A stretch of DNA of 64,000 bases from Thalassospira lucentensis MCCC 1A00383 = DSM 14000 (GTDB lineage: Bacteria > Pseudomonadota > Alphaproteobacteria > Rhodospirillales > Thalassospiraceae): contig NZ_ATWN01000004.1 of assembly GCF_000421265.1 (NCBI RefSeq), forward strand, positions 124,001 to 188,000. The letters are read 5' to 3'. Position 1 is the stretch's first letter. The number at the start of each line of letters is the position of its first letter. Under the pieces are notes generated by a model. It was given only the letters and a program-made list of their open reading frames with translations, ran no database searches and was not told where the DNA came from. Made by a program: the position numbers and the translations under genes. Below, piece after piece: positions 3,822 to 60,909 of the stretch.

Positions 3822-4424
3822 ATGGCTAAAGTTCTCGTGCTTTATTATTCGATGTACGGACATATCGAAACCATGGCGAATGCCGTGGCCGACGGCGCGC
3901 GCGGTGTTGCCGGAACCCATGTCGATGTTAAACGTGTGCCTGAAACCATGCCCGAAGACGTGGCAAAGGGTGCAGGTGCCAAGCTTGATCAGGCAGCCCC
4001 GGTCGCCACGGTTGACGAATTGCCTGAATATGATGCGATCATCTTTGGTGTGCCGACCCGCTTTGGCAATATGCCCGGTCAGATGCGCACGTTCCTTGAT
4101 CAGACCGGTGGTCTTTGGGCCAAGGGCAAACTGATTGGTAAAATCGGTTCTGTGTTTACATCCACCGGGACCCAGCATGGCGGTCACGAAACCACCATCA
4201 CCTCGACCCATACGACGCTTCTGCATCAGGGAATGGTGATTGTTGGTGTGCCTTATAGCTGTGCGGGCCTGACCAACATGGATGAAATCACCGGTGGGTC
4301 GCCTTATGGCGCGGGTACGCTTGCGGGTGCGGATGGTTCACGCCAGCCGTCACAAAACGAACTCGATATCGCCAAATTCCAGGGCAACCACGTTGCCGAA
4401 CTGGCCGCAAAACTGGCGGGCTGA
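3822..4424 (+). CDS. wrbA: NAD(P)H:quinone oxidoreductase, WrbA flavodoxin family
   Basis: A 200-residue flavodoxin-like protein. WrbA uses FMN and NAD(P)H for two-electron quinone reduction, protecting against redox-cycling quinones. The phosphate-binding loop is [12 protein letters not shown] (residues 9-20), the FMN-contacting loops are [12 protein letters not shown] and [12 protein letters not shown], and the length matches E. coli WrbA (198). A strong ribosome site, AAGGAGG, lies 7-8 bp before the ATG. An 8-bp inverted repeat (GCCTGCAA...TTGCAGGC, 3772-3795) lies just in front of it and may be an operator or an mRNA leader hairpin. It is a stand-alone gene closed by the hairpin at 4455-4488. 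Confidence 0.95.
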
Positions 4425-4454
4425 TCGCGATCAGTCGCAATCACGTAAACCACC

Positions 4455-4488
4455 AAAGGCAGCCTTGGGAAACCGGGGCTGCCTTTGA
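4455..4488 (+). terminator. Rho-independent-like terminator after wrbA
   Basis: AAAGGCAGCC and GGCTGCCTTT form a 10-bp stem around a 12-nt loop, 30 bp after the wrbA stop. The T-run is short, so termination may be partial. Confidence 0.6.
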
Positions 4489-4646
4489 TATGGGCTTGGG
4501 CCCAAAGGCGATCTTCAGACGTGTTTGTTGGTCATAGGGAAACAATCAGGTGCCTGATTGAACCTTGTTTGGCGACAGTTTTGTGCGAAAGTGGGGTATG
4601 ACATTTGCCCGGTTTTGCGGGCGCATCAAAATACAGGAGGTCACCC

Positions 4647-5510
4647 ATGTCCGACGCTGTTTCCAATCTGCGCAATGTCGCCAAGGTTTTACGGGCGATG
4701 GATACATCCGATGGTGCGGGTGTGTCGCTTAAACGGTCTATCGGGACGCCAGAGCTTGATATGCTTGATCCGTTTCTGATGCTGGACTCGATTTCGACCG
4801 ATAATGCCGATGAATACATCGCCGGTTTCCCCGAGCATCCCCATCGCGGGTTTGAGACCGTGACCTATATGGTCGAAGGGGCGATGCGCCATCAGGACAG
4901 CATGGGCAACGAGGGCGTTTTGCGTTCTGGCGGTGCGCAGTGGATGACAGCTGGAAGCGGTATCGTCCATTCGGAAAAGCCTGAACAGGAAGGTGGCCTG
5001 TTGCAGGGGTTCCAGCTTTGGATCAATTTGCCTGCAAAGGACAAAATGATCGATCCGCGCTATCAGAACCTTGAGCCAAACGAAGTACAGGAACTGTCAC
5101 CGGCCAAGGGGGTGAACCTGCGTTTGCTGGCGGGTGAAATGTTTGACAAAAGCGGCCCGATCAATGGCATTTCGACAAATCCTGTTTTTGTTGATGTCAA
5201 ACTTGATGCGGGGGCCGAGGTCACCATCCCGTTGCCCAAGGGGCACACCGCCGTGGTTTATGTCTTTATCGGGGATGCCGTGGTTGCGCAGAAAGACGTC
5301 CCGACCCATCATCTGGCTGTTCTGGCCAATGGGGAGGGTGTGACGCTTACGGGTGGTGAAGATGGCGGACGAATGCTGGTGATTGCCGCACGTCCCTTGC
5401 GTGAAGAGGTCGTGCGTTATGGCCCGTTTGTCATGAGCAGTAAAAAAGACCTGATGCAGGCGTTTGACGATTTCCAGAACGGAAACTTCGTCCGCAAGGC
5501 GGCATCGTAA
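4647..5510 (+). CDS. Pirin family protein
   Basis: A 287-residue bicupin of the pirin family. The metal ligands are intact: H64 and H66 in HPHRGF, H108 and E110 in IVHSE, matching H56/H58/H101/E103 of human pirin. Bacterial pirins bind Fe(II); some (YhhW) oxidise quercetin, others modulate metabolic enzymes. ATG 4647 is chosen because AGGAGG lies 7 bp upstream, and translation from an earlier in-frame codon at 4605 would add an unconserved leader. It is a single cistron with its own terminator and directly follows wrbA, which fits a shared redox or quinone theme, but this is only suggestive. Confidence 0.92.
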   Translation: MSDAVSNLRNVAKVLRAMDTSDGAGVSLKRSIGTPELDMLDPFLMLDSISTDNADEYIAGFPEHPHRGFETVTYMVEGAMRHQDSMGNEGVLRSGGAQWMTAGSGIVHSEKPEQEGGLLQGFQLWINLPAKDKMIDPRYQNLEPNEVQELSPAKGVNLRLLAGEMFDKSGPINGISTNPVFVDVKLDAGAEVTIPLPKGHTAVVYVFIGDAVVAQKDVPTHHLAVLANGEGVTLTGGEDGGRMLVIAARPLREEVVRYGPFVMSSKKDLMQAFDDFQNGNFVRKAAS

Positions 5511-44585: not shown

Positions 44586-45470
44586 TTACCCGTGCGTTCC
44601 GCTAAGCACATGAAAACAAATCGGAACCTGAAAATGGCCGTCTTCGATATAGGGTGAAAGTGTTTCAAACATCGCCGCATTAAGTGCGCCCATCTCCATA
44701 TCCGATGCTTCGCGCAGGATATGGCCAAACAGCATGTCCATCTGCGGTTTCCAGAAGGCCACCGTTTCGGGAATGCGCCCGGCCGGGCTGTGGGTGGTGG
44801 CCTGAATGCCCCGAAACCCGGCACTTTCAAGGCGCATCATCGACTGATCGACATTGCCAAAGCTAAACGGATCAAGCCCGGCCTTATCAAACCCGATGCC
44901 AAGGATATTGCCCAGCACCGCATCCATCGCGGCAAAAAGCGGATTATCGACCAACGGCGCCCAGACCATAAAGACCGCCCGGCCGCCAGCCCGCAACACC
45001 CGATGACTTTCACGCAAGGCCAAATCTGGATCACCACAAAACATCACGCCAAACCGGCACGACACCACATCAAACGATTGGTCGTCAAACGGCAGTTTTT
45101 CCATATTGGCGGGCATGACGGTGATGTTGGCAATGCCGTCTTCTTGGGCGCGTGCGCTTAATCCATCGCACATTTCGGGCACGATATCGGTGGCGGTGAC
45201 ATGGCCGGTAATACCGGGTGTGTTAGCGCTAACATCGCGCTGCCCCGACAGGGCCCGGGCAAAGGTAAAGGCCGGTTCACCCACCCCGGATGCCAGATCA
45301 AGTACCGCCAAATCCGCCCCGCCTCGCGCATGGGCAAGGGCGGGCAGATCAACCGCCTCAATCATATGACGATTGATTTTCCCGGCTGCGGGGGCAAGGC
45401 GATCCGCCCAGTTGATCCAGTCAGCGGAAAGGTTGTGCCACGTCGTTTGGTCCTGATGGGTCATGATCAT
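44586..45470 (-). CDS. Class I SAM-dependent methyltransferase
   Basis: A 294-residue Methyltransf_11-type enzyme. Motif I is VLDLASGVGEPAFTFA (about 56-71), motif II DQSFDVVSCRFGVMF and the post-II segment RVLRAGGRAVFMVWA. Substrate unknown; UbiE-like or small-molecule methylation is typical. ATG 45470 or 45464 may be used. A shrunken partial copy of its 5' part occurs at 47288-47404. It is divergent from the membrane coiled-coil gene starting at 45617. Confidence 0.88.
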   Translation of the reverse strand: MIMTHQDQTTWHNLSADWINWADRLAPAAGKINRHMIEAVDLPALAHARGGADLAVLDLASGVGEPAFTFARALSGQRDVSANTPGITGHVTATDIVPEMCDGLSARAQEDGIANITVMPANMEKLPFDDQSFDVVSCRFGVMFCGDPDLALRESHRVLRAGGRAVFMVWAPLVDNPLFAAMDAVLGNILGIGFDKAGLDPFSFGNVDQSMMRLESAGFRGIQATTHSPAGRIPETVAFWKPQMDMLFGHILREASDMEMGALNAAMFETLSPYIEDGHFQVPICFHVLSGTHG

Positions 45471-45616
45471 CCGAGCTGTCGGTTTAAAGATGCGACGACA
45501 ATAGGGGGAAAGATAGGGCGAAAGAAAGACCGATTTCCCCCAACGCGCCCCTCACATGTGTGATGGCCACACGTCAATAAACCGATGCCCGCATAAATTG
45601 CGACGTGAGAGGCACC

Positions 45617-47038
45617 ATGTCCCTTCAGAAAGAGAGCAACACAGCACTCGCACGCCTTGGCAGTGCCGGGATTCTGATGAGCCTTGCCTGTGTGCTGTAT
45701 GTTGGATTTGTTGTCACCCTGTTTGCCGGGTTCACCGCCGATATTCAGCGCGACATGCTCAGCCGTGAAATCGCCACCTCCGCGCCCGGTGATCTGGAAC
45801 GCATGATCCGCCAAAGCTTTTACGAGGCCGAACTTCACGAAGAAATCAAACAATTACAAAGCGATATTCGCAAAACAAATACTGCCGCACTTGAAAAATT
45901 CCGCATCGGACTGACCCTTCGCAAAGACGCGATGGCGGCCTTCTGGCAGGCCTATGATGGTGCCGCCGCCCTAAGCACAACCGTAACGCAAAACCGCGCA
46001 ACGTTTGAGGATGATTTTGTTGCCGCCTACCTTGACGCCATGACGATGGCACATGATTTTGTCGCCCGCTTTCAGGCGCAAAAGCAAAGCCCGTCTTCTG
46101 ATCAAAATCCGCTTTCTGATGAAAACAAGGACGACACGCAGACATCCGGTGGACTGCACGCAGATAACGGGGCACGGGTCGTTGCGGCCCTTCGCGCTGC
46201 TCTGGCCAAATTGGCCTTTGCAGGCGCGACAGGCGATATCGGTTTAACGGTTGTGAGCACGTTTGAACAAGGGGTCTATGACACGGTTGATCAGCTTGGC
46301 AACACGTTTCGACACTTTGATGATCAAAACATCCAGTCGCGGGTCGTGTGGGAAAACATCCGGGCGGAGCAACGCCAGGTCGACAAGATTTTACGCAATA
46401 TGCAGGCCCAGATTGACGAGATCGAAGCAGAGCTTGCGCAGAGCAAGACCAAAAAGGAGATCGATCTTTCCGCCCTTGTCGCCCTGTTTCAGAACCCGAT
46501 TGGCGGTTTTCTGTCCATTCTGGTGCAATTGCCCACCATCATGCTGACCCTGCTGGTCACGGTTGCGGCCGGGGGATTGGGGGCGGTGGTTGCCTTCACC
46601 CGTCAGAACTTTGGGCACAGGTCAAAAGAGACGCAGCCAAACACAGACCCCGGCCCCCCTCAACCCGGTTCAGATCAACCAAGTTCAGACCAACCCGACC
46701 CAGCAGCACATGCGCCCCTCACGCCCCATACACCCTTTGACACTGCACCGGATGACACCGCGTATGGCCTCATGGCCTCGGCCCGTCTTTTGATGATGAC
46801 GGGGGAGGGGATCGCCGCCGCGATTGCAATCTTCCTGTTCTCGGAAGCCGGGATGTTGATGCTGACCCAAGGCGGCCCGAATGGCAGCGGTCAGGTCGAT
46901 ATCAGCCCGTATCTTGTGACCTTCATGGCGTTTGTCTCGGGCTTTATGGCCAAGGACGCCTTTAGCAAAATTCAGGATGCCGGGCACAAGATTTTCAAAA
47001 TCCGCGATAATGACGATGCGTCTGGTATGGGGCTTTGA
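45617..47038 (+). CDS. Membrane protein with coiled-coil region, unknown function
   Basis: About 473 residues. It has an N-terminal helix (about 18-40), then a long polar helical part with likely coiled coils (EAELHEEIKQLQSDIRKT; AEQRQVDKILRNMQAQIDEIEAELAQ), a central hydrophobic helix pair (about 295-335: FLSILVQLPTIMLTLLVTVAAG), a Pro/Gln/Ser linker, and a C-terminal module with two helices (GIAAAIAIFLFSEAGMLML; LVTFMAFVSGFMA). ATG 45617 follows GAGAGG. Its 3' end is directly duplicated at 47068-47251. It could be a membrane-scaffold or sensing protein, but no family is recognised. Confidence 0.7.
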   Translation: MSLQKESNTALARLGSAGILMSLACVLYVGFVVTLFAGFTADIQRDMLSREIATSAPGDLERMIRQSFYEAELHEEIKQLQSDIRKTNTAALEKFRIGLTLRKDAMAAFWQAYDGAAALSTTVTQNRATFEDDFVAAYLDAMTMAHDFVARFQAQKQSPSSDQNPLSDENKDDTQTSGGLHADNGARVVAALRAALAKLAFAGATGDIGLTVVSTFEQGVYDTVDQLGNTFRHFDDQNIQSRVVWENIRAEQRQVDKILRNMQAQIDEIEAELAQSKTKKEIDLSALVALFQNPIGGFLSILVQLPTIMLTLLVTVAAGGLGAVVAFTRQNFGHRSKETQPNTDPGPPQPGSDQPSSDQPDPAAHAPLTPHTPFDTAPDDTAYGLMASARLLMMTGEGIAAAIAIFLFSEAGMLMLTQGGPNGSGQVDISPYLVTFMAFVSGFMAKDAFSKIQDAGHKIFKIRDNDDASGMGL

Positions 47039-47251
47039 GGCTGGTTTGATACGGGCGTGATCGGCAAGGGGATCGCGGCTGCAATTGCGATCTTCCTGTT
47101 TTCAGAAGCCGGGATGTTGATGCTGACCCAAGGCGGCCCGAATGGCAGGGGGCAGGTCGATATCAGCCCGCATCTTGTGACCTTCATGGCATTTGTCTCG
47201 GGCTTCATGGCGAAAGACATCTTGAGCCGCATTCAGGACGCAGGCCGAAAA
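46807..47251 (+). repeat. Direct repeat of about 184 bp (3' end of membrane-protein gene)
   Basis: Positions 46807-46990 recur at 47068-47251 with an offset of 261 bp and high identity, including a shared run such as GGGATGTTGATGCTGACCC. The two copies differ at scattered, mostly synonymous positions, so the duplication is not recent. Confidence 0.9.
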
Positions 47252-47308
47252 CTATTTCGGCGGCATATGGATGGCGGTGGTTCCGGTTCAGCAGTGTCGG
47301 GTGGATAG
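47057..47308 (+). pseudogene. Truncated copy of the membrane protein's C-terminal module
   Basis: An 83-codon frame from GTG 47057 codes IGKGIAAAIAIFLFSEAG and the rest of the C-terminal module of the gene just upstream, ending differently (GGGSGSAVSGG). It lacks the N-terminal and coiled-coil parts. It is probably a remnant, although a short two-helix product is possible. Confidence 0.65.
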
Positions 47309-47404
47309 AGGCATGGGTGGTTCATTCCGCCCAGATGCCAGATCAAGTGCCGCTAAATCCGCCTCATTGATCCAGTCAGGGGAGAGGTTGTGCCAAGTGG
47401 TCAT
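47288..47404 (-). pseudogene. Shrunken copy of the methyltransferase 5' end
   Basis: A 38-codon frame from ATG 47404 reads MTTWHNLSPDWINEADLAALDLASG, clearly parallel to the N-terminus of the methyltransferase at 44586-45470 (TTWHNLSADWINWAD ... LAVLDLASG) with about 100 bp deleted between. It stops soon after at 47288. The ATG overlaps the stop of the DUF4062 gene (ATGA). Confidence 0.75.
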
Positions 47405-49863
47405 AGATATCTCTTTTGTAACTCTTTCTGGGCACACGATTTCGCAATTTTTCTACTGAATGAACAACCTAGGTCGAGCCATTGGCAGGTGTCATAATAA
47501 ATTTTTTGTGACTCTTCCGAATACTGCTTTGTTACCGTTTTTATCTGAGAGGTACTCATACTTCTAACGACTTGGAGTGCTGAGGCAATACGAACATTTC
47601 CGTCATTATGTCTTAACAGCGTCTCTATCATCTCATTTTGCAGTTCCGCAAAATTTCTAATCGGAATGTTTGCAACTAGATATGGGATTACGCTTTCCCG
47701 AATAGAGCCGTTGAGTAAATCACCAATTCGATCACGACCAAGCTTGTAATAAAGTTTCCCGAGTTCGCGGTCAGTGCTTTGCGTTATGTCTATCTGTAGG
47801 GCTAATGTTATTCCCTCAGATCTAAGTTGTGCCTTTTCTTCCATCAGAGCGATGTCGTCCCAACACCCATGTTTCTCAAAGTAATTTAGAACGTCTCTCG
47901 ATACCTTGATGTTGGGTTTCCTGATGAGCTCACGAATCTCTTCCAAATCGTTTTTGTTGTTAAACGAGCATAATGTATTGATAGCCGATTGACACAGGGC
48001 ATAGTTTGCCTCTGAGTTTTCCATAAATTTGGGGATAGTTAGTCCTAATAGATCGCTGGCGCTTGGACGGGGGAACACACTCCTGACGGGTTTGATTAGA
48101 GATGATCGTTTGTGAATCGTCTCTATCAATTCTTTTTTTGAAGATGTTCTCTTCTTCTTGAATCGAACTATAGTTGCAATCCAGTTGTCATCTCTTTCAG
48201 CTATTTCAAGTTCAGAAACTTCAAGATGAAACAAGTATTCAGTAATAATTAAATTTATTTGAGAGCGAGAGGTTATATCCGACTGGTATGTTTGCCAGCA
48301 AATCGGTGTGTTGATTTCATTGTTGTCTAAAGAGTTCAGCGTTTTTGATACTGAATCACTGTTTATCTTAACTCCTCGTTTTTTTGCTGCGATAAAGCCT
48401 GTGATGCTCACTGTAGGAGAGGGGTCGCTGGAAATGGTTTGTATTTCATCTATAGATAGAGCGTTTCTAGAAACAAGTGTTCTTGCTGCCATGTGGCGCA
48501 AAATTCGTGATGGGCATTGCAAGCATGCTCTGAGAGTTTCGGTTTGAACAACCGCTACTTTCTCAAATAGGCCCCTAACCAGCGTATTGTTTAGTTCTTC
48601 AATATCGGGTTCAGTTGCTCGCTTGAGAGCATGATCAATACTATTTCTACTGAGGATTTGGATCGTAGCAGTTGACGCAGCTTCACGAATTTTTCGAGAT
48701 TCATTTGTAAGTAAATATTTTAACTCGCCAACATCTTCTGGTCTTCCAAAGTTCGCAAGGTGGTAGATAAGTGCGCAGGTGTCTTCTTCTTTTTCATGCT
48801 CTAGGCTGATCCGGATTGTTTCAGCTCTCGATACATCATTACCTAAATATGAAGGAAAGCGCAGTTCCAAGTTTAGTATTTCTAGAATACGCAGTGCATT
48901 CCGACAGACTACACCTTTCTTGAAAATAGCTAAGGCGGAAAGTTTATCCTGACAATCGGTGGTTTTGGAAAGCCAGTACCAGAGTGGAAAGTACGAAGAC
49001 CAATACTTTGCAATTCCGGTTTCAAGTAGCTTTGCTACTTCCTGTTTTGAGAGGGTGATGTCTTCTTTTGCTAAGAAAATGAGAAAGGCGTCGTGTATGC
49101 CGATATCACTATCATCATTCCCTACGCGTCGAAGGGACGCTGCAAGTAACCGGAAGCGCGCAATTTCGATTGAAGTTGTGGCATCCCAAGCATTGTCCTT
49201 GGCGCAAATAGTTTGGATGAGTTCGTATGCAATACTGTCGAACAACTTTCCTTTTTGCTGCGCGCCAGTAACTTGGAGTGTGGTAGAATTATTTTCGGTT
49301 GTTATACTTGAAGGGTCTTCTGTCGTTTCTTTTTCGATTATGCTGTATATGTATTGACTGATAGTTTTTGATAGTTTTCTTTCAAACTCTTGAGTTTCGT
49401 CAAATTCTTGAAAAATAAGTCTCTTTTTGTCTATTTCATTCTGTCGGAAATCTAGAACTTTTTTAAGTTCCACACCAGGATCTCTCAGTAGGTCGGGGTG
49501 AACTTTCTTGAACATGAGAGAAATAAAAGGCTTCTTCGTTTGTTCCATTCGATCAGTAGCTCGAACAAACTCCTCCTCAAAGCCTGACGTGAAGTGACCG
49601 TCGTTATCTGGTGGCGTGCCCCATCTCTTCCAGAGCATGCCAATAAACAGTTCGCATTGATCAAGCTCTCTGTTGATGATCTCTTGTGGACGGCCATACT
49701 GAGAAATAGTGTCCTCCCAGCCAAACAGTTCTAGGTTGCATTTCCAGTAGGCTGAGTGCGTTTTGTTTAGCTCGTTAACAACTTCAGAAGCTATTTTACG
49801 TTCGTTTGATAAATCTCCTGGGGATGCCAAAAATATTCTAACAATTCTTCTGTTGTCTGACAT
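47401..49863 (-). CDS. DUF4062 (TIR-like) protein with long helical-repeat C-terminus
   Basis: An 820-residue protein in AT-rich DNA unlike its flanks. The N-terminal 170 residues fit DUF4062: FLASPGDLSNER (11-22), NLELFGWEDTISQYGRPQEI, ELDQCELFIGMLWKRWGTP (about 66-84), TSGFEEEFVRA, and PFISLMFK. DUF4062 is a TIR-like flavodoxin-fold domain seen at the N-terminus of NLR-like and other conflict proteins. Residues about 200-800 are made of HEAT-like helical pairs (FGRPEDVGELKYLLTNESRKIREAAS; RHMAARTLVSRNALS) with no NTPase motif visible. ATG 49863 has GAGGG 5 bp upstream. A single-gene anti-phage or stress sensor-effector is a plausible inference. Confidence 0.8.
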   Translation of the reverse strand: MSDNRRIVRIFLASPGDLSNERKIASEVVNELNKTHSAYWKCNLELFGWEDTISQYGRPQEIINRELDQCELFIGMLWKRWGTPPDNDGHFTSGFEEEFVRATDRMEQTKKPFISLMFKKVHPDLLRDPGVELKKVLDFRQNEIDKKRLIFQEFDETQEFERKLSKTISQYIYSIIEKETTEDPSSITTENNSTTLQVTGAQQKGKLFDSIAYELIQTICAKDNAWDATTSIEIARFRLLAASLRRVGNDDSDIGIHDAFLIFLAKEDITLSKQEVAKLLETGIAKYWSSYFPLWYWLSKTTDCQDKLSALAIFKKGVVCRNALRILEILNLELRFPSYLGNDVSRAETIRISLEHEKEEDTCALIYHLANFGRPEDVGELKYLLTNESRKIREAASTATIQILSRNSIDHALKRATEPDIEELNNTLVRGLFEKVAVVQTETLRACLQCPSRILRHMAARTLVSRNALSIDEIQTISSDPSPTVSITGFIAAKKRGVKINSDSVSKTLNSLDNNEINTPICWQTYQSDITSRSQINLIITEYLFHLEVSELEIAERDDNWIATIVRFKKKRTSSKKELIETIHKRSSLIKPVRSVFPRPSASDLLGLTIPKFMENSEANYALCQSAINTLCSFNNKNDLEEIRELIRKPNIKVSRDVLNYFEKHGCWDDIALMEEKAQLRSEGITLALQIDITQSTDRELGKLYYKLGRDRIGDLLNGSIRESVIPYLVANIPIRNFAELQNEMIETLLRHNDGNVRIASALQVVRSMSTSQIKTVTKQYSEESQKIYYDTCQWLDLGCSFSRKIAKSCAQKELQKRYL

Positions 49864-50212
49864 GTAGACCCTCAAAAAACTCTATTCTAGAAAATTAGTG
49901 CGAACACTGGGCAATTTTTGATTGGTAATCAGGGCTAATTTTACGTGAATAGGTGGAAATTTTGAATGAGATTAAAGCTAAATGTTAGGGTGTTGCTACA
50001 CTTTGTTTTGGAGCAGCGTTAGTTGTTAAACGCAATGAGTGTAGTTGAGGCTCATAAGCCTTATGATCTTTTAAATGTATTGATGTCAGTAAATCAGGCA
50101 TTGCAAGCCTGAATATGTGCCTGATTGAAATATAGTGGCATACGTAACCAACAAAAAAACCGGAGGCCTTGGCCCCCGGTTTCTAATGTGTGCGAACAAG
50201 ATGTTCGAATGA
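49864..50212. other. 349-bp AT-rich intergenic region
   Basis: It holds the promoter region of the DUF4062 gene and the terminator of the DUF5610-like gene. No further gene is seen. Confidence 0.5.
50150..50187 (-). terminator. Terminator of the DUF5610-like gene
   Basis: AAACCGGGGGCC and GGCCTCCGGTTT pair and are followed by TTTTTGTTGG on the minus strand, about 25-60 bp after the stop. Confidence 0.75.
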
Positions 50213-50881
50213 TCAGCCGTTCGTCCCATACCGTGGCGCATTGCGCTGGGCGTTGGTGGCGGACTCGGCATAGGCTTGGCTGGCCTGTGCGGTCTGGGTG
50301 ACCTGCGATTGCAGGACCTGCTCGTCACGTTCCGGGGTTATGTCGGCGGCTTCTTCTGACGGGCTGCTGTTATAAAGCTCGGTCAGGCGCTGCTCGATGG
50401 ATTTAAGGCCTTCGTTCAGGCGGTCTTCGGTCTCGGTGATGTTGCCGTTGATTTGCTCATTCAGCGCACCGAGGCCCTCAAGGAACTCACGCGCATCATC
50501 AAGGCCGCGCTTAATGCCTTCGCTGGCCTTTTCGAAAATCTCGCGGGCTTCGCCTTCGGTATCGGAATTCGCCGCAATCAAATCACCGACACGGGCCAGA
50601 ATACGGTCAGCCACGGCTTCGGGGGTGTAATCACTGGGATCAACACCCTGAATGGAAATGCCGGTTGACGACAGGCTTTCATTGATTGCTGCGACGATCT
50701 TATCAGCCGATAAAAGATTGGCCGATTGAGAGGACAGGGAAACCGATGTCGCGGCCGCAAAGGCCGATGTGCCGTTGTTCCCGGTTTTGTCCGCGTCACT
50801 TTGACCGGGCAAATACGATTGCGCCGAGCGCGAAGAAGCGCCGGTTTGCTGGGACGTCAGGCCGCCAATGGTGATATCCAT
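50213..50881 (-). CDS. DUF5610-like protein
   Basis: A 222-residue protein without signal peptide. It has an Ser/Gln-rich N-terminus (MDITIGGLTSQQTGASSRS), the DUF5610-like block (SVSLSSQSANLL, DPSDYTPEAVADRILARV, about 48-100) and a helical, probably coiled-coil C-terminal half (REFLEGLGALNEQINGNITETEDRLNEGLKSIEQRL in parts). ATG 50881 has AGGGAGG 7 bp upstream. The function of the family is not established. It ends in a strong terminator. Confidence 0.75.
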   Translation of the reverse strand: MDITIGGLTSQQTGASSRSAQSYLPGQSDADKTGNNGTSAFAAATSVSLSSQSANLLSADKIVAAINESLSSTGISIQGVDPSDYTPEAVADRILARVGDLIAANSDTEGEAREIFEKASEGIKRGLDDAREFLEGLGALNEQINGNITETEDRLNEGLKSIEQRLTELYNSSPSEEAADITPERDEQVLQSQVTQTAQASQAYAESATNAQRNAPRYGTNG

Positions 50882-51084: not shown

Positions 51085-51136
51085 GGGGATGGGGATGGGG
51101 ATGGGGATGGGGATGGGGATGGGGATGGGGATGGGG
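51085..51136 (+). repeat. GGGGAT hexanucleotide microsatellite (eight copies plus GGGG)
   Basis: Eight perfect GGGGAT units followed by GGGG. The G-runs of four, each two bases apart, are suited to G-quadruplex formation on the plus strand. It sits about 250 bp upstream of leuS and 200 bp upstream of the DUF5610-like gene. Confidence 0.92.
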
Positions 51137-51150
51137 CATGTGTTGCGATG

Positions 51151-51180
51151 AGATTCCCGCCTTCGCGGGAATGACGATGT
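51151..51180. repeat. Dispersed palindromic element
   Basis: ATTCCCGC-CTTC-GCGGGAAT (51153-51172) with right flank GACGATGT. A related variant lies at 43519-43574. This matches the common alphaproteobacterial extragenic palindrome type CGTCATTCCCGCG..., though the full family extent is unknown here. Confidence 0.7.
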
Positions 51181-51380
51181 AGTATGAACCAGAACAGTCT
51201 GGGCCAAGGGGCAAATTGACAGTATTTGCGCCGATTTCATGTGATCTGATGTTGCACAGCGGCCAAAGCCCGCTTATGAACACAGGTTCAGATTTATATG
51301 TAACCCAATTTGGTATGGCAGGCGCGCTTTTATGATCCGCGCCCGAGGCCAACAAACGGGCCCCGATAGGCAGGAGTTGA

Positions 51381-54618: not shown

Positions 54619-54720
54619 ATGATAGGAATCGGTTGGATTACCAATCTGATTAGACCGCCAAAGTTGTTTGTGTGGATGCTGTTTGGATGGCGTCACGTGG
54701 TTTTTGTGTTTGCTGATTGA
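54619..54720 (+). CDS. Possible 33-residue membrane microprotein
   Basis: ATG 54619 is preceded by GAGGTGGG and reads 33 residues ending at TGA 54718-54720. The sequence is hydrophobic and Trp-rich (WITNLIRPPKLFVWMLFGW, then HVVFVFAD), suggesting one membrane helix. It directly precedes the receiver-like gene and could be a leader or an accessory peptide. The evidence is only position, RBS and composition. Confidence 0.3.
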   Translation: MIGIGWITNLIRPPKLFVWMLFGWRHVVFVFAD

Positions 54721-54731
54721 AAGAGTTGTAC

Positions 54732-55136
54732 ATGGCTGTGCTGCAGAGGAAAGCTTTGGGTAGAGTTAGGCAGAATGACTTAAGTGCGCGCGGGTCTGAG
54801 AGAACCGCTACGGCCAAGATTTCTGTGCGTACAAAAAATATCATCGTGGTTAGCGAAGACGAAGTTTTGTACAGGAAAGCTTTGGTCGAGTATCCACGAG
54901 AAAGGGGGTACCGCGTGCACCGTGTCTGGAACCCACTTGATGCAGCCAGCGCGGTGGAATATTACCGTGCCACTTTCGTTGTTATGGATCGAGTTTTCCC
55001 CAAAGCCCATCAGACGAGTCGCGAGATAACCAAGCAGATTCATCGCGTGAAACCAAATGCGCGGGTGTTTGTCGCCCCAGACAAAAGTATTAAGAGTTTG
55101 AAAACCGGTTTGGTGTCTGCAGGGGTACTGGGGTAG
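54732..55136 (+). CDS. Degenerate receiver-like protein
   Basis: A 134-residue protein with a basic N-terminus (LQRKALGRVRQND) and a receiver-like fold: first strand NIIVVSEDEVLYRKAL with an acidic pair, candidate phospho-acceptor in FVVMDRVFP, and a final strand RVFVAPDKSIKSL where the usual Thr/Ser is Ala. No output domain is attached. ATG 54732 is chosen (an AAAGAG site about 6 bp upstream); TTG 54717 is a less likely start. It is closed by its own terminator, hence separate from RADAR. A partner-switching or DNA-associated role is inference. Confidence 0.55.
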   Translation: MAVLQRKALGRVRQNDLSARGSERTATAKISVRTKNIIVVSEDEVLYRKALVEYPRERGYRVHRVWNPLDAASAVEYYRATFVVMDRVFPKAHQTSREITKQIHRVKPNARVFVAPDKSIKSLKTGLVSAGVLG

Positions 55137-55262: not shown

Positions 55263-58200
55263 ATGCGTAGTGGCTATTCGCAGGATAATGAGAACGGGTC
55301 TCTTAACGGCATGGGGGGTGGAGCAACCCGTTTCCAAACTGTTGAAAGCTTGTATCAGCAGCAGGCTGATGCTTTACGAAAAGTCCTGTATGGTATCCAG
55401 ACGATCGCTTACGAAAGTGAGGTGAAAGAGCCTACGGCTAATGGCTCAGTTAGTGACCCTTCTCTTGAAACAGACCCCATTTGGCGGTCAGAGAGACTTT
55501 CCTATGATCGGCCTCACCAGGTTTTTGTAATCGACGGCGCACGCGGTACGGGCAAAACAAGCCTTCTGATTACCCTGATTGATCTGTTGAGTTCACAAAA
55601 TATGACTGGGCAGAATCCTGATCTGGCTAGTTTCCTCCGTGTGCAGGAAGATGGGGGCGATCATCGCAACCAATATGACGTCAAAAAGAGTGTTTGGGAA
55701 AAATGGGTTCCCCAGCGTGTCGGGGTAGGTCGCCGCGTTGAACGCAAGGTGGCTTTGGTTTTACCGGTGATCTTCCCTCATGACCTGAGAGACAATGAAT
55801 CTCCGATGGAGGCCATTTTCGCGGAAATTCAGGACGTCTTGCAGCGCGAGCGTAAGAAGGTTTCGAGTGGCGATACCGATAAGCAAAGAAAGATAGAAGA
55901 ACTGATAAAGGAGCTGCAAAACGAAGTTGCGATGGGGTGGATATTTAACGAACCAAACGGCAGCAGCGTTTTATCAAACGACGCATATGACTATAAAGAT
56001 TATGCGAGGCTTTATATCAAATCGGTCAGGCAAGGGTATAAGCGTATAGAAGCATGGCGCGGGTTTGTTGAGAAGCTGCTCGACGTGCTTGGTTATCAAA
56101 TTCTTGTGCCAAGTTTTGACGATACAGATTTGGGTTCAACCTTGGAGAAGGGGATCGTTGAAACGATCCGGCATTATCTTACGCATCCGCGTATCGTAAC
56201 GGTAATGGCAACAAGTTTTTCGGATCTTGTGAAGCGAATAAAGATTGAAGAAATTGAGAACAATCAAAAGGCATTAACTGCTCTTCGAAATAATAATCTT
56301 GATAAATATCATTACGCAAATTTGTTGGAGGAGCGGGTAGAGCAATCTTTGGAAAAAGTGTTCCCTGCTGTTTTCCGTACGAAAATTGGCTTGTTTAGCC
56401 GCACGAATCTTGATGAAATTTCCGACCCCACTTTCACAGAATATTGTGTGCGTCATTTCTTTTATGCCGATAGAAACCTTGTTCACATTGATGAACAGAA
56501 TACGGCCGATTCACGCGAAAAGTTCTCTGAGGATAAGAAAAATGCCGATTCCGACAGCATGGCGAGCCAGCATCGCTTAGATATGACGAGGGAGGTATTG
56601 CAAAATCTGCTCGATGAAGAGCGGTTGTCTTGGTGGCTCTTGAACGCCCCCTACAATGAGTTGGTTCGTGAAAGTGTTCGTGGGCACCTAGCTTTTCGGC
56701 ATCAAGTCTCGGCAAGAGAGGGGCTTGATCTGCTTAAAAAGGTACCTAATATTGCTTGCGGAATCTCGCAAAATGCACTGCCTGCTCAGCTAATAGCAAA
56801 TTTGGCAAAATATCACGATTTGACCAATCACTTTGTGCAAGGTCTTGGGGATATAGGCATTTCAATTGCAACAGGTAAGTTGACCAAGCTCTGGGAGTCT
56901 TCCCCGCCTGCAATTGAGGTTGATGAAGGTTTGCCAAGCGAGTGGGGGCTACTTCATTCTGAAGCGGAATATGCGACGGTGGTAGATGGCTCTGATACCC
57001 CAACGTCTTGGTACAAGCTTATTGAGTTTTGGTTAGATTTACAAATTGCAAAAGCCAAACTCAAATGCGGAAACGATCCAGTTATTTCAGCTTGGTTGCC
57101 GAGAGCGTTTGCTAAAACTTTAACTCTATCGAATATGTCTCAGTTTAAGCGGCTTGGTGTTGGGCAATGCTTTCCAAATAGATTCATCCCGTTGAACTGT
57201 GTTTATTTCTATCAGTTCAACGTTATTGAACCATATCTCGGCAACGGAGCAAAATTCGAAGACATCAATGCCAAAGTTATCCCTGCTTTAGGGGATAATG
57301 GAGATGAGTTGCAGGCGCTTGCAGCCGCGTTTCGTAAAGCAGTTGATAATTTCGACGATTTCCAAGACGCTAATTGGCTACCTGAAAATTACGAGTTCTA
57401 TGTAACGGTTTTCAGGCTCTTTTGTGCTCGGGAAGGAAGGCGTCATGAAAAGTCCATTTTTGAGTTCATGGCAAAGTTCCTTGAATTTCGTACAAGGTCA
57501 AATTTTGATTATTATCAAGACATTGAGCAGTATGGAGTTTGGTCATTTTTAATTAATGATATTGAAAAGGCGTTGGAGAATCTGAATGTAAATGGTGAAG
57601 TTAATGATGATGATCTGATCGTGAAATCTTTGTATGGAGGTACGGAAAAAGAGTCCTTGAATAAAAGCGGTTTGCTTAAACTTATTGATCGGTTGTCTCT
57701 AAATTTAAAAGAGATGTTGAATTTGACGATACGATTCAATGATTTCTTGGATAAGTTCTTAGATCCAATGTTCCGGATGAATAAATCGAGATCTTTCTGC
57801 GAAGTTTACTGGACTCTTGCCGTTCGTCTCGGGCAGTTCGGGTGTAATTATGATGCAGATTTAAAACAAGTTTCCACTGAGCCTGCTCTAGTATTGCATC
57901 ATGACGTGCATGGAAGATTGGAGGACTTGTTAAGGCTCTCTTCCGATCTGATCGGCAAAGAGAATTTGCGCAGCTTCAGGTCTAAATTGCTGTTTGCTTA
58001 TAGTTTGGCACCGATTGTTGAGCCAATGTTCAAGTATGGGTCTGTTGGGGATAGTAGCTGGGATAATTTACGGAAAGCGTGGCAGCATCTCCACGAAGGG
58101 CTTTCCTCTTTCGCGAGGCAGATGGAAGCTGTCTTTAATACAGCTTTTTCCGACTATGACACAGCTAACGAAGCAGAGCGTTCCCAAGAAGCGCAATCTG

Positions 58201-58541
58201 CTATCACTGGTGTTCGTGAACACATAAGCCGTGTTGAAAAGCGGTATCGTAGCTGTCCAGAATCAGTAACAATCGACAGGGGCTCTTCCAAAGGAATGAG
58301 CGTTTCTGAAATTGTTCGTTGGTATTTCCCGGATTTCGAGAAGGAGGAGTTGTACCGAATTCTCGGAGATGTGAAGAAAACTTGTGAAAAGCTGAGCGAG
58401 CTTATTGATTTGGCGGACCAGCAGTTCGATGAAAAGTCGGAAAATCCGAACGCGGAGAAATGGGCTCAGATAGAATTGCTTGAGAGAATGACCGGCATTC
58501 AGGGATATCCGATGGTGCTTCTAAATGAAGAAATTAAGTGA
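55263..58541 (+). CDS. rdrA: RADAR system ATPase RdrA
   Basis: A 1092-residue KAP/AAA-type P-loop ATPase. Walker A is GARGTGKTS (92-100), preceded by a strand QVFVID, and a Walker-B-like LVPSFDDTD sits at about 281-289. The rest is long and helical with no nuclease motif. The identity is supported most by the directly overlapping adenosine-deaminase gene downstream, the defining RADAR pair. In RADAR, RdrA forms a ring that senses infection and recruits RdrB, which deaminates adenosine in RNA or ATP to inosine forms and aborts infection. AGGGGG lies 6-7 bp before ATG 55263. It is AT-rich relative to the chromosome, which suits horizontal transfer. Confidence 0.88.
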   Translation: MRSGYSQDNENGSLNGMGGGATRFQTVESLYQQQADALRKVLYGIQTIAYESEVKEPTANGSVSDPSLETDPIWRSERLSYDRPHQVFVIDGARGTGKTSLLITLIDLLSSQNMTGQNPDLASFLRVQEDGGDHRNQYDVKKSVWEKWVPQRVGVGRRVERKVALVLPVIFPHDLRDNESPMEAIFAEIQDVLQRERKKVSSGDTDKQRKIEELIKELQNEVAMGWIFNEPNGSSVLSNDAYDYKDYARLYIKSVRQGYKRIEAWRGFVEKLLDVLGYQILVPSFDDTDLGSTLEKGIVETIRHYLTHPRIVTVMATSFSDLVKRIKIEEIENNQKALTALRNNNLDKYHYANLLEERVEQSLEKVFPAVFRTKIGLFSRTNLDEISDPTFTEYCVRHFFYADRNLVHIDEQNTADSREKFSEDKKNADSDSMASQHRLDMTREVLQNLLDEERLSWWLLNAPYNELVRESVRGHLAFRHQVSAREGLDLLKKVPNIACGISQNALPAQLIANLAKYHDLTNHFVQGLGDIGISIATGKLTKLWESSPPAIEVDEGLPSEWGLLHSEAEYATVVDGSDTPTSWYKLIEFWLDLQIAKAKLKCGNDPVISAWLPRAFAKTLTLSNMSQFKRLGVGQCFPNRFIPLNCVYFYQFNVIEPYLGNGAKFEDINAKVIPALGDNGDELQALAAAFRKAVDNFDDFQDANWLPENYEFYVTVFRLFCAREGRRHEKSIFEFMAKFLEFRTRSNFDYYQDIEQYGVWSFLINDIEKALENLNVNGEVNDDDLIVKSLYGGTEKESLNKSGLLKLIDRLSLNLKEMLNLTIRFNDFLDKFLDPMFRMNKSRSFCEVYWTLAVRLGQFGCNYDADLKQVSTEPALVLHHDVHGRLEDLLRLSSDLIGKENLRSFRSKLLFAYSLAPIVEPMFKYGSVGDSSWDNLRKAWQHLHEGLSSFARQMEAVFNTAFSDYDTANEAERSQEAQSAITGVREHISRVEKRYRSCPESVTIDRGSSKGMSVSEIVRWYFPDFEKEELYRILGDVKKTCEKLSELIDLADQQFDEKSENPNAEKWAQIELLERMTGIQGYPMVLLNEEIK

Positions 58542-60909
58542 GAGTGAACTTGCCCTTTGGTTTGTCACATGGCCTTCACGAAGGAAATGTGCACTAGACC
58601 TTGTTTCGAAACCGAAGGATATTCTTGCTGGAATCGATGAAACTATCGATGTCGATTACAAGCGTGATGAAAAGTTTATTGAGCAGTTTGTCGAGTTTGT
58701 TCGGCACGAAAACCGGATGTGCCATCCGGAGGATATTGACGCCACATCACGGAAGCTTTTTACCGATCATTCCACCTTCTTGGATTGGTATGATTGCATT
58801 CTTGAGAAAAGCGGCTTCGAACTCAAGATATTCGCCTCACGGCCTGTTATCGGTTTACTCGGTCTGCCTCAGTGGCGGCACGCAACAGCACATTGCGATC
58901 CGGATGCGCTGATTTGTCTGTACGCGGCCAAGCGGCTAACAGACAGCCCTTTCGGACAGGAAAGCATTGTTGAGCAGTTAAAGGGGTGGAAAACACTTAT
59001 CCGTGCAGAAGACCCTGACCTCGACGATGTTCTGCGAGACGGATGTTCCGATACTCACATCCACCTTGAAGCTGCAGACCCGATTCCGGTCGCTTGGTTG
59101 CGTTTGATGGCTGGTTGGGTGCGCGTTGAAGATTTCAAGCGCTACAATAGCGATGAGATAATTGAACTTGCTAATGACAACTTTGCGGCAATTGATAGAG
59201 AGCGCGAAAAACTGGCGATTTCGGAAGCTTTAGAAATTCGGTCATCTTTACTGAGACATTGTGGGATTGCAGAAGTTGCAAATCGCGATTGGGTTGAAGA
59301 TGAGCTTTCTTCTGAAGCATATCTTGCGGAGGAAAGAGAGTTTCTGTTTGCCGCTTGGAGAATACTGCTCATCGGTGACAGAAAATTGGCGTCAGGGCTT
59401 AGTCGATACTTGTATGGGAAAAATCTTTTTTTGTACCGGCATCAACAGTTTCCTGGCAGCGGGATCGGTCTTAATGTTTTCAGGGACTACCTTGATCGGG
59501 GGGAGACCATTATTGAAAATAGACTTAAAAAATCCTCCAAACGAGCACAGGAAAATCGGATATTCAGGTTGTCATCTTGTGCGTTTGAACCAGAAGTTAT
59601 CAAGCATATTGAGTTTCGTATCGCCCCGCAAAAAACAAAGAAAAAATATTATCAGTTCTTCGATCTATGGGAGAAGAGAGTTCTACCAAGACTGAAGCTT
59701 GATGAGAAGGATCGCAGCGCAGCCTTCGTTGTGCATTTCATACGTAACAATATGTACGGGGGGGGACGTAAATTAGACGAAGGCGTGCCTTTTGAGAAAG
59801 TCCGCAAAGACTTGGATAAGCAAACAGTCGAACTTCATATGTTCAGGCGAGAACAACCGGTGCTAAGTCGGAATATTGTGGGTATTGATGTTGCCAATAT
59901 CGAAAGGGGATGTCCGCCTGAAATATTTTCTCCTTTCCTCAAGCTGCTTCGTGGAGAAGTGTCTCTTGCGGATAACCGGCGGGAGTGGGGACAAGCTCAC
60001 GTCCCCAAGTTCTGGCGACGCCTTAAAGAGGAGTTTCGCGGGAATCTGCATCGACATCCTTATGGTTTGCCAAGGCTAGGACTTACATACCATGCCGGAG
60101 AAGATTTTTACCATCTAACTGATGGACTTCGCCAAATAGACATGTTGAGCAATCACTTGTTGTCGGAAGGGGACAGAATTGGACATGGTCTTGCATTGGG
60201 CATTGACCCCAACGATTTCCAAAGTGGTTTTTCCAGAAATAGACAAGCCCCTGCCGGGGTGCTTTTAAGCAACTTTATTTGGTTATTGCGTATGGGGGAT
60301 GAAAACGGCTTATTAAGCTCTGCTTTGCGTCATACTCTGAAAAACGCAGTATTTCGTTTGGCGGAGAGAGCTTATGGGACTGACTTGAGACTTGATGCGC
60401 TCAATTCCTTGCAGTCAATCAGATTTGACTTCTTACCTGATCAAAACGCCGAACCAACAACACTCGCAGGGAAACTATATTGGCGTGAGACATATAAAAA
60501 AACGGTACGTGAAACGCTTAACAGTGCTTCCGACCCCTCCGATTTTGCCATATTGAACGAATGCTCGGAGTTGTTACGTTCGGTTCAAGAGCTTGTAATT
60601 AGAAAGTTACAGCGAAAGGGGATTACAGTTGAGGTTAACCCTAGCAGCAATACGGCAACAGGGGCCGTTGATGAAATGGTTAATCATCCCTTGTTCAATA
60701 TCGTTGAAACCCTGGATTCTGGGGCAGGTATTTCCGTAAATACGGACGACCCTGGTGTTTTCTCGACGCGATTAGACAATGAGTTTGGAATGGTTTTCGG
60801 TGCGATGCTTGTGCGTTTTGACGGGGATCGCCCGAGAGCTCGAAGGTATCTTCAGCAAATGCGAGATGCGGGAAACTACAGCCGCTTCATGAAGGATCCA
60901 ATCTCATGA
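58525..60909 (+). CDS. rdrB: RADAR system adenosine deaminase RdrB
   Basis: A 794-residue adenosine deaminase-superfamily protein. The catalytic motifs are in order: HxH metal ligands H178 and H180 in SDTHIHLEA, the HAGE motif H523-A-G-E526 in TYHAGEDFY, H554 in RIGHGLALG, and D741-D742 in SVNTDDPGVF (metal and catalytic Asp), with VEVNPSSN before them. It is about twice the length of a housekeeping ADA, as expected for RdrB. The gene overlaps rdrA by 17 bp, so the two are coupled. In the family it deaminates adenosine (ATP to ITP or RNA A-to-I) once activated by RdrA. A strong terminator follows. Confidence 0.93.
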   Translation: MKKLSESELALWFVTWPSRRKCALDLVSKPKDILAGIDETIDVDYKRDEKFIEQFVEFVRHENRMCHPEDIDATSRKLFTDHSTFLDWYDCILEKSGFELKIFASRPVIGLLGLPQWRHATAHCDPDALICLYAAKRLTDSPFGQESIVEQLKGWKTLIRAEDPDLDDVLRDGCSDTHIHLEAADPIPVAWLRLMAGWVRVEDFKRYNSDEIIELANDNFAAIDREREKLAISEALEIRSSLLRHCGIAEVANRDWVEDELSSEAYLAEEREFLFAAWRILLIGDRKLASGLSRYLYGKNLFLYRHQQFPGSGIGLNVFRDYLDRGETIIENRLKKSSKRAQENRIFRLSSCAFEPEVIKHIEFRIAPQKTKKKYYQFFDLWEKRVLPRLKLDEKDRSAAFVVHFIRNNMYGGGRKLDEGVPFEKVRKDLDKQTVELHMFRREQPVLSRNIVGIDVANIERGCPPEIFSPFLKLLRGEVSLADNRREWGQAHVPKFWRRLKEEFRGNLHRHPYGLPRLGLTYHAGEDFYHLTDGLRQIDMLSNHLLSEGDRIGHGLALGIDPNDFQSGFSRNRQAPAGVLLSNFIWLLRMGDENGLLSSALRHTLKNAVFRLAERAYGTDLRLDALNSLQSIRFDFLPDQNAEPTTLAGKLYWRETYKKTVRETLNSASDPSDFAILNECSELLRSVQELVIRKLQRKGITVEVNPSSNTATGAVDEMVNHPLFNIVETLDSGAGISVNTDDPGVFSTRLDNEFGMVFGAMLVRFDGDRPRARRYLQQMRDAGNYSRFMKDPIS

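Follow-up and report, generated by a model that had tools for sequence, protein, structure and literature searches.

Avs and other NLR-like STAND proteins carry an N-terminal effector and a C-terminal repeat sensor. Here, we analysed a 64,000-nucleotide stretch of Thalassospira lucentensis MCCC 1A00383 = DSM 14000 (contig NZ_ATWN01000004.1, positions 124,001 to 188,000; hereafter the window), in which a single gene encodes an 820-residue protein with an N-terminal DUF4062 domain and a long HEAT-repeat region. DUF4062 domains are described as TIR-like NADases in phage defence, named "Swarozyc" and often paired with auxiliary domains, in the available part of a bioRxiv preprint of May 2026 (PMC13174449). 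As described there, the Klebsiella protein KpSwz depends on E97 and on its auxiliary domain; the phage portal acts as its activator, and NAD+ is depleted. The reaction splits NAD+, and in the case of human TEP1 both NAD+ and NADP+, into nicotinamide and ADP-ribose (phosphate). For DSR2, the available part of PMC11263360 reports that a HEAT-repeat region with the C-terminal domain can sense a phage protein for the NADase.

The initial annotation of the gene, made from the sequence alone, proposed a candidate new defence module of a build unlike known plans. Both points were too strong, judging from the available parts of these papers: the effector is no longer new because DUF4062 has already been reported in portal-activated NADase defence proteins (PMC13174449), and an effector-sensor plan without an NTPase already exists in Swarozyc and in DSR2 (SIR2 plus HEAT). 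We found no report of a DUF4062-HEAT protein in the open-licence literature, and the term "HEAT repeat" is absent from the main text of PMC13174449 as available. Our analysis suggests that the 820-residue protein is probably a horizontally acquired, single-gene NADase of the abortive-infection type, in which the HEAT solenoid would sense infection.

Gene and domain architecture

The gene is intact on the minus strand, from an ATG at 49863 to a stop codon at 47401 (a TTG 12 bases upstream of the ATG is also in the open frame), and the plus strand across 47401-49863 is crowded with stop codons. The initial annotation had the coordinates exactly right and gave no strand. A chance open reading frame (ORF) is ruled out by the 577 proteins that match at E ≤ 0.001, and in the gene's own genome the DUF4062 model matches at this locus only. 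Pfam places DUF4062 (PF13271) at residues 9-102 (1.4e-8; 35.2 bits against a cut-off of 24.7) and HEAT_2 at residues 355-423 (2.3e-7, above cut-off). With a TIR/NDT-like N-terminal fold and an all-helical solenoid at residues 209-820 in AlphaFold2 (AF2) models, these matches bear out the earlier description of a TIR-like DUF4062 N terminus followed by about 600 residues of helical repeats. The claim that a STAND motor is missing also held, as neither a P-loop family nor a Walker A pattern was found in the protein and no NTPase is among the four Pfam families listed for it. There is likewise no SIR2 match among its Pfam matches up to E 1 and no NCBIfam match up to E 0.1.

In the two AF2 models, the N-terminal domain is predicted to adopt an alternating beta/alpha fold with five strands, as in the TIR-like superfamily, with no strand beyond residue 154 and with the presumed BB-loop region as a low-confidence loop; TIR and DNPH1/NDT folds fit this model equally well. 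A second look at the fold matches with VIA-align ranked TIR or TIR/DNPH1 first. The ranking by Foldseek itself was judged uninformative for both models: it was led by PP2A-type HEAT proteins for one of them and by flavodoxin-like and other alpha/beta proteins for the other, with NDT at rank 4, DNPH1 at 20 and TIR at 29. Sequence-only searches for a solved relative with the single protein, the full profile or the domain profile retrieved no TIR domain, the full profile returning designed alphaReps and other HEAT-type proteins. A profile comparison with the canonical TIR domain that stands beside DUF4062 in another protein (locus L079, see below) was not significant. At the level of the fold, the models do not show the lack of a TIR-like pocket that the initial annotation had named as evidence against its reading.

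Conservation of the effector and divergence of the solenoid

In an alignment of 119 homologues and the query (A1), whose members were chosen by words common with the query and share 26-30% overall identity with it, W49, E50, R58, Q60, N64, W81, G82, S93, G94, F95, E97 and E98 are invariant. The search for a catalytic Glu proposed in the initial annotation leads to the acidic candidate motif SGFEEE, which is invariant except for E96, with E97 and E98 present in 120 of 120 sequences. By analogy with KpSwz E97 and TEP1 E1008 (PMC13174449, available part), this motif may contain the catalytic Glu. The motif claim rests on A1 because the patterns of the GTDB scan behind a second alignment (A5) included SGFEEE, which makes its conservation in A5 partly a matter of construction.

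Over 2000 random pairs, pairwise identity averages 55% for the effector and 17% for the linker. Along the solenoid it is 38% (209-350), 37% (351-510), 30% (510-640) and 33% (641-745), and the C-terminal 75 residues (about 746-820) are better conserved than the rest, at 42%. The query solenoid itself is distant from the others (14-30% by segment). We read this pattern as a conserved, presumed enzyme joined to a putative recognition region that diverges faster but is better preserved at its C-terminal end.

Comparison with described systems

The protein resembles Swarozyc, as characterised in the available part of PMC13174449, in its TIR-like DUF4062 effector, the conserved Glu named as catalytic, the NTPase-free sensor region and the defence-island context. 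Unlike KpSwz, which has a helix-turn-helix (HTH)/winged portal-binding domain, it carries a HEAT solenoid of about 610 residues and is set apart by this description; the model of the 820-residue protein shows no HTH/winged auxiliary domain after a helical stalk. Like DSR2, it has an NADase-type effector, here a putative one, at the N terminus and an extended, helical C-terminal region containing HEAT repeats, which senses a phage protein in DSR2 and may be a sensor here; the effector fold is SIR2 in DSR2 (PMC11263360, available part) and TIR-like here, and we claim no homology. DSR2 is not among the listed fold matches, which has no bearing on relatedness. The PADLOC candidate PDC-S60, of which we found no mention in the open-licence literature, matches the N-terminal domain (E 1.7e-33, residues 5-197), but only over profile positions 2-187 of 906, with the rest unaligned. 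The P-loop NTPase module of Avs/STAND proteins has no counterpart. The 820-residue protein is therefore neither a Swarozyc protein in the strict sense, nor DSR2, nor an Avs/STAND protein, and probably works like the first two.

A genus-wide cargo slot beside leuS

The gene lies in an AT-rich insertion (Table 1). As the initial annotation had noted, it is AT-rich itself: its GC content of 0.411, against 0.529 for the 64-kb window, is the lowest among 41 non-overlapping ORFs of at least 200 residues. The interval 47310-50150 has no match in the 20 congener loci fetched, except for 34-46 bp copies of flanking DNA. The decayed duplicates noticed earlier beside the gene are real: in addition to the 89% copy at 47067-47238, short copies of stretches upstream of the 477-residue gene occur at 47330-47363 and 47357-47395.

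We looked for the corresponding slot in 28 congeners. Twenty regions were read, three more (G036, G037 and G048) were called empty from match coordinates alone, and G039, G040, G043, G047 and G049, with weak or no anchors, were excluded from the count. Among the 23 readable congeners, the slot is empty in 12 and holds other cargo in 11. In 8 of the 11 occupied slots, PADLOC detected defence or candidate-defence genes at E ≤ 1e-10, when 20 cargo ORFs, with some small or secondary ones left out, were scanned. The locus beside leuS (45605-50881 in the window, L143-L162 in the congeners) is thus a genus-wide cargo slot with differing defence genes, which supports the defence role suggested by the initial annotation. 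In the open-licence literature, we found nothing on defence islands in Thalassospira.

Congeners share both flanking genes, except that the 477-residue gene has no match in L157-L161, where flagellin-like genes (named by eye) lie on the left; the right gene and the gene at 44586-45470, further left, are thus the firmer anchors. In L152, two small partners of the MazG_C protein are without a PADLOC match, and this cargo is possibly an undescribed defence operon. The L157 slot further contains two response-regulator-like ORFs, named by eye, and is not an obvious defence system. A run of GGGGAT hexamers was seen at about 51085-51186, beside a short palindromic sequence (core about 51150-51176); near-identical copies of the palindrome lie at numerous sites in many genus genomes among the matches listed and so form a dispersed repeat element.

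Table 1. Features of the DUF4062-HEAT locus (window coordinates) and cargo of the corresponding slot in congeners (locus handles; PADLOC values are E-values; pLDDT, predicted local distance difference test)
Feature	Coordinates or locus	Strand	Basis or remark
DUF4062-HEAT gene, single gene	47401..49863	-	ORF, Pfam
TIR/NDT-like DUF4062 effector domain, residues 1-182	49318..49863	-	
Presumed BB-loop and start of helix B, residues 48-60	49684..49722	-	name by analogy
Presumed catalytic motif S93-G94-F95-E96-E97-E98, at helix start	49570..49587	-	
Linker, residues 183-208, partly disordered	49240..49317	-	pLDDT <50 at 186-203
All-helical HEAT-repeat solenoid (putative sensor), residues 209-820	47404..49239	-	
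AT-rich insertion, approximate extent	47310..50150	.	no congener match; query from 47260
Left anchor, 477-residue gene	45605..47038	+	no Pfam family at 0.001
Incomplete copy (89%) of the left anchor's 3' end	47067..47238	+	copy of 46806-46977
Right anchor, gene of about 222 residues beside leuS	50213..50881	-	conserved in congeners; start codon by eye
OLD nuclease	L143		PADLOC 2.4e-208
PD-Lambda-2_B	L145		PADLOC 6.7e-46
NsnA/GmrSD	L147, L148		PADLOC 2.2e-67, 3.4e-58
Cytosine methyltransferase and REase_II-like partner; type II restriction-modification	L149		MTase_II 1.9e-79; partner 5.7e-11
PDC-M11A	L150		PADLOC 7.3e-118
LmuA/DUF4297-like protein, 1343 residues	L151		PADLOC 4.2e-12
MazG_C protein (3985-5283)	L152:3263-6313		no strong PADLOC match
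Type II Zorya, ZorA2-ZorB2-ZorE2	L153		
1108-residue protein	L157:3454-8148		weak PADLOC matches only (best SduA 4.8e-8)
HsdR_N/AAA protein	L158		best PADLOC 2.2e-6

RADAR-like neighbours

The initial annotation had also leaned on a RADAR system about 5 kb away. A divergent RADAR-like pair is indeed present at 55263-60909, 5.4 kb from the gene and past leuS (named by eye, with a match in 30 of 30 other genomes), and its two genes have the next two lowest GC contents. Its scores are far below the RADAR equivalog cut-offs of NCBIfam, with 36 bits against 600 for the RdrA-like KAP NTPase and 116 against 800 for the RdrB-like adenosine deaminase. A full-length RdrB-like match occurs in 1 of 29 genus genomes, namely this one, the others having none or about 70-80 residues. 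The genus-wide slot of defence genes is much stronger support for a defence role than this pair. A small response-regulator-like ORF (54717-55136; Pfam 0.0013, below cut-off) stands just before it.

Distribution of the DUF4062-HEAT build

The best 120 of the 577 matches, one of which is the window's own protein, are 796-887 residues long; in 117 of them the best local alignment spans at least 96% of the query, and in P0006, P0057 and P0113 59%. A first scan of GTDB contigs, for which the single sequence served as query, turned up no relative, and an alignment-based scan found 92, of which 80 were kept. Of 22 loci with only partial matches that were tested further, 16 are also matched by a profile built from the C-terminal region (E-values over the whole sequence between 4.7e-54 and 2.4e-5 at a set size of 1000), in two pieces in L050, L064 and L068 and weakly in pieces or truncated in L056, L062, L066, L073 and L078; this test left out L076, L080 and L081, which are short or cut, and several other scan loci. 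By their record titles, the 16 loci include what we take to be Cyanobacteria, Acidobacteriota, Nitrospirota, Planctomycetes, Actinobacteria, Bacteroidota and Clostridia, and several are metagenome-assembled genomes (MAGs). Pfam detected both DUF4062 and HEAT_2 in all five of the 16 that were scanned, HEAT_2 being above cut-off in L063 only. By these profile matches, the build of about 800 residues recurs in several phyla.

Six of the 22 loci lack the C-terminal profile match, and five of them (all except L074) were scanned with Pfam. DUF4062 is fused to a phage-type tyrosine integrase in L053:4632-6089, joined to an FtsK/SpoIIIE-type (FtsK/HerA-like) ATPase domain in an Arthrobacter record (L069:9989-11473), and, in a record titled as a Methanophagales archaeon MAG (L079:9998-11584), placed ahead of a canonical TIR_2 domain and tetratricopeptide repeats within one protein. 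L077 gives weak BNR/sortilin-like matches, and L067 has no Pfam match. Judged by these domain matches, DUF4062 is therefore a module with varied partners, in agreement with the available part of PMC13174449.

Closer to the window, the gene occurs in this genome but in none of the 28 others examined from the genus, and the full model matched in 3 of 385 genomes of the class, one of the three with an internal TAG. Phage records gave no match to the protein. Among plasmids, 21 records match; in one of them the match spans most of the protein, is split into two pieces and overlaps an annotated IS5 transposase. In L033, L048, L058 and L061, the open frame is cut to 559, 598, 611 and 465 residues despite a match across most of the protein. 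Broken copies of homologues seem common.

Neighbourhoods of homologues

The neighbour counts cover the 30 of the 80 loci that have a full-length ORF and enough sequence on either side. Within 5 kb of these lie 314 neighbouring ORFs of at least 90 residues; the 211 of at least 180 residues were scanned against PADLOC, and 106 of these against Pfam; 106 neighbours of leuS, randomly drawn from 251 in the same genomes, served as the control. At E ≤ 1e-10, 40 PADLOC models were matched by one set of 106 neighbours and 150 by the other set of 105, versus 0 by the leuS neighbours, counts of models that often match the same protein and so yield no per-protein share. The control is lenient because leuS is a core locus. 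Among the Pfam families counted in the first set, phage integrase (5/106) and resolvase (3/106) came out on top, both outside the 25 families listed for the control, and many of the remaining genes are ordinary. The initial annotation had regarded mainly housekeeping contexts as evidence against a defence role: the gene's own slot is not such a context, and the homologue loci show only more PADLOC models than leuS, with ordinary genes common. The 562 neighbouring ORFs include no family that is present at more than 6 of the 30 loci, and the protein therefore appears to act on its own.

Proposed mechanism and alternative explanations

In our model, the protein would be inactive in the uninfected cell. 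Upon infection, a phage component would bind the C-terminal HEAT solenoid, and binding would rearrange or gather the protein, bringing its TIR-like DUF4062 domains at the N terminus together in pairs to form active sites. These would hydrolyse NAD+, and the infected cell would halt before phage release. By analogy with Swarozyc and DSR2, as covered by the available parts of the two papers, our leading guess for the trigger is a structural protein such as the portal or the tail tube. More tentatively, the proteins of about 800 residues could form an independent, multi-phylum defence system, distinct from Swarozyc sensu stricto, that arose by convergence of a TIR-like enzyme on the plan of DSR2: the solenoid would clamp a phage protein and switch on the cleavage of NAD(P)+ or nucleotides, with the trigger set by a sensor diverged beyond the reach of BLAST and the effector staying about 55% identical.

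It is conceivable, if rather unlikely, that the HEAT region of such a defence protein instead senses a phage-made enzyme, host damage or the state of nucleic acid, or guards a host factor. The strong divergence of the sensor sequence would suit this explanation, as would the conserved last 75 residues (42% against 30-38% in the rest), as for a fixed contact with the host or with itself; the nearest worked examples, KpSwz and DSR2, argue against it, both being triggered by virion proteins according to the available parts of their reports. We consider it improbable that in a defence protein of the same build the DUF4062 domain, for which DNPH1/NDT folds fit as well as TIR, is an NDT/DNPH1-like nucleotide N-glycosidase or makes an ADP-ribose-type signal, with no depletion of NAD+. 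KpSwz and TEP1 hydrolyse NAD+, and TEP1 also NADP+ (PMC13174449, available part), and no conserved neighbour stands ready as the addressee of a signal. The ordinary metabolic genes near some homologues would fit a housekeeping or regulatory HEAT-repeat protein with an incidental TIR-like domain. This explanation is very improbable in view of the patchy occurrence of the gene in genus and class, its AT-rich insertion, the lack of a conserved neighbour, and a slot common to Zorya, OLD, restriction-modification and other systems.

If the NADase reading with a HEAT sensor is true, DUF4062 NADases would extend from one studied sensor type, the HTH/winged domain that responds to the portal, to a large family with HEAT sensors, and the protein would offer a testable example of convergence with DSR2. 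Across the genus, the slot beside leuS provides candidate defence genes for study.
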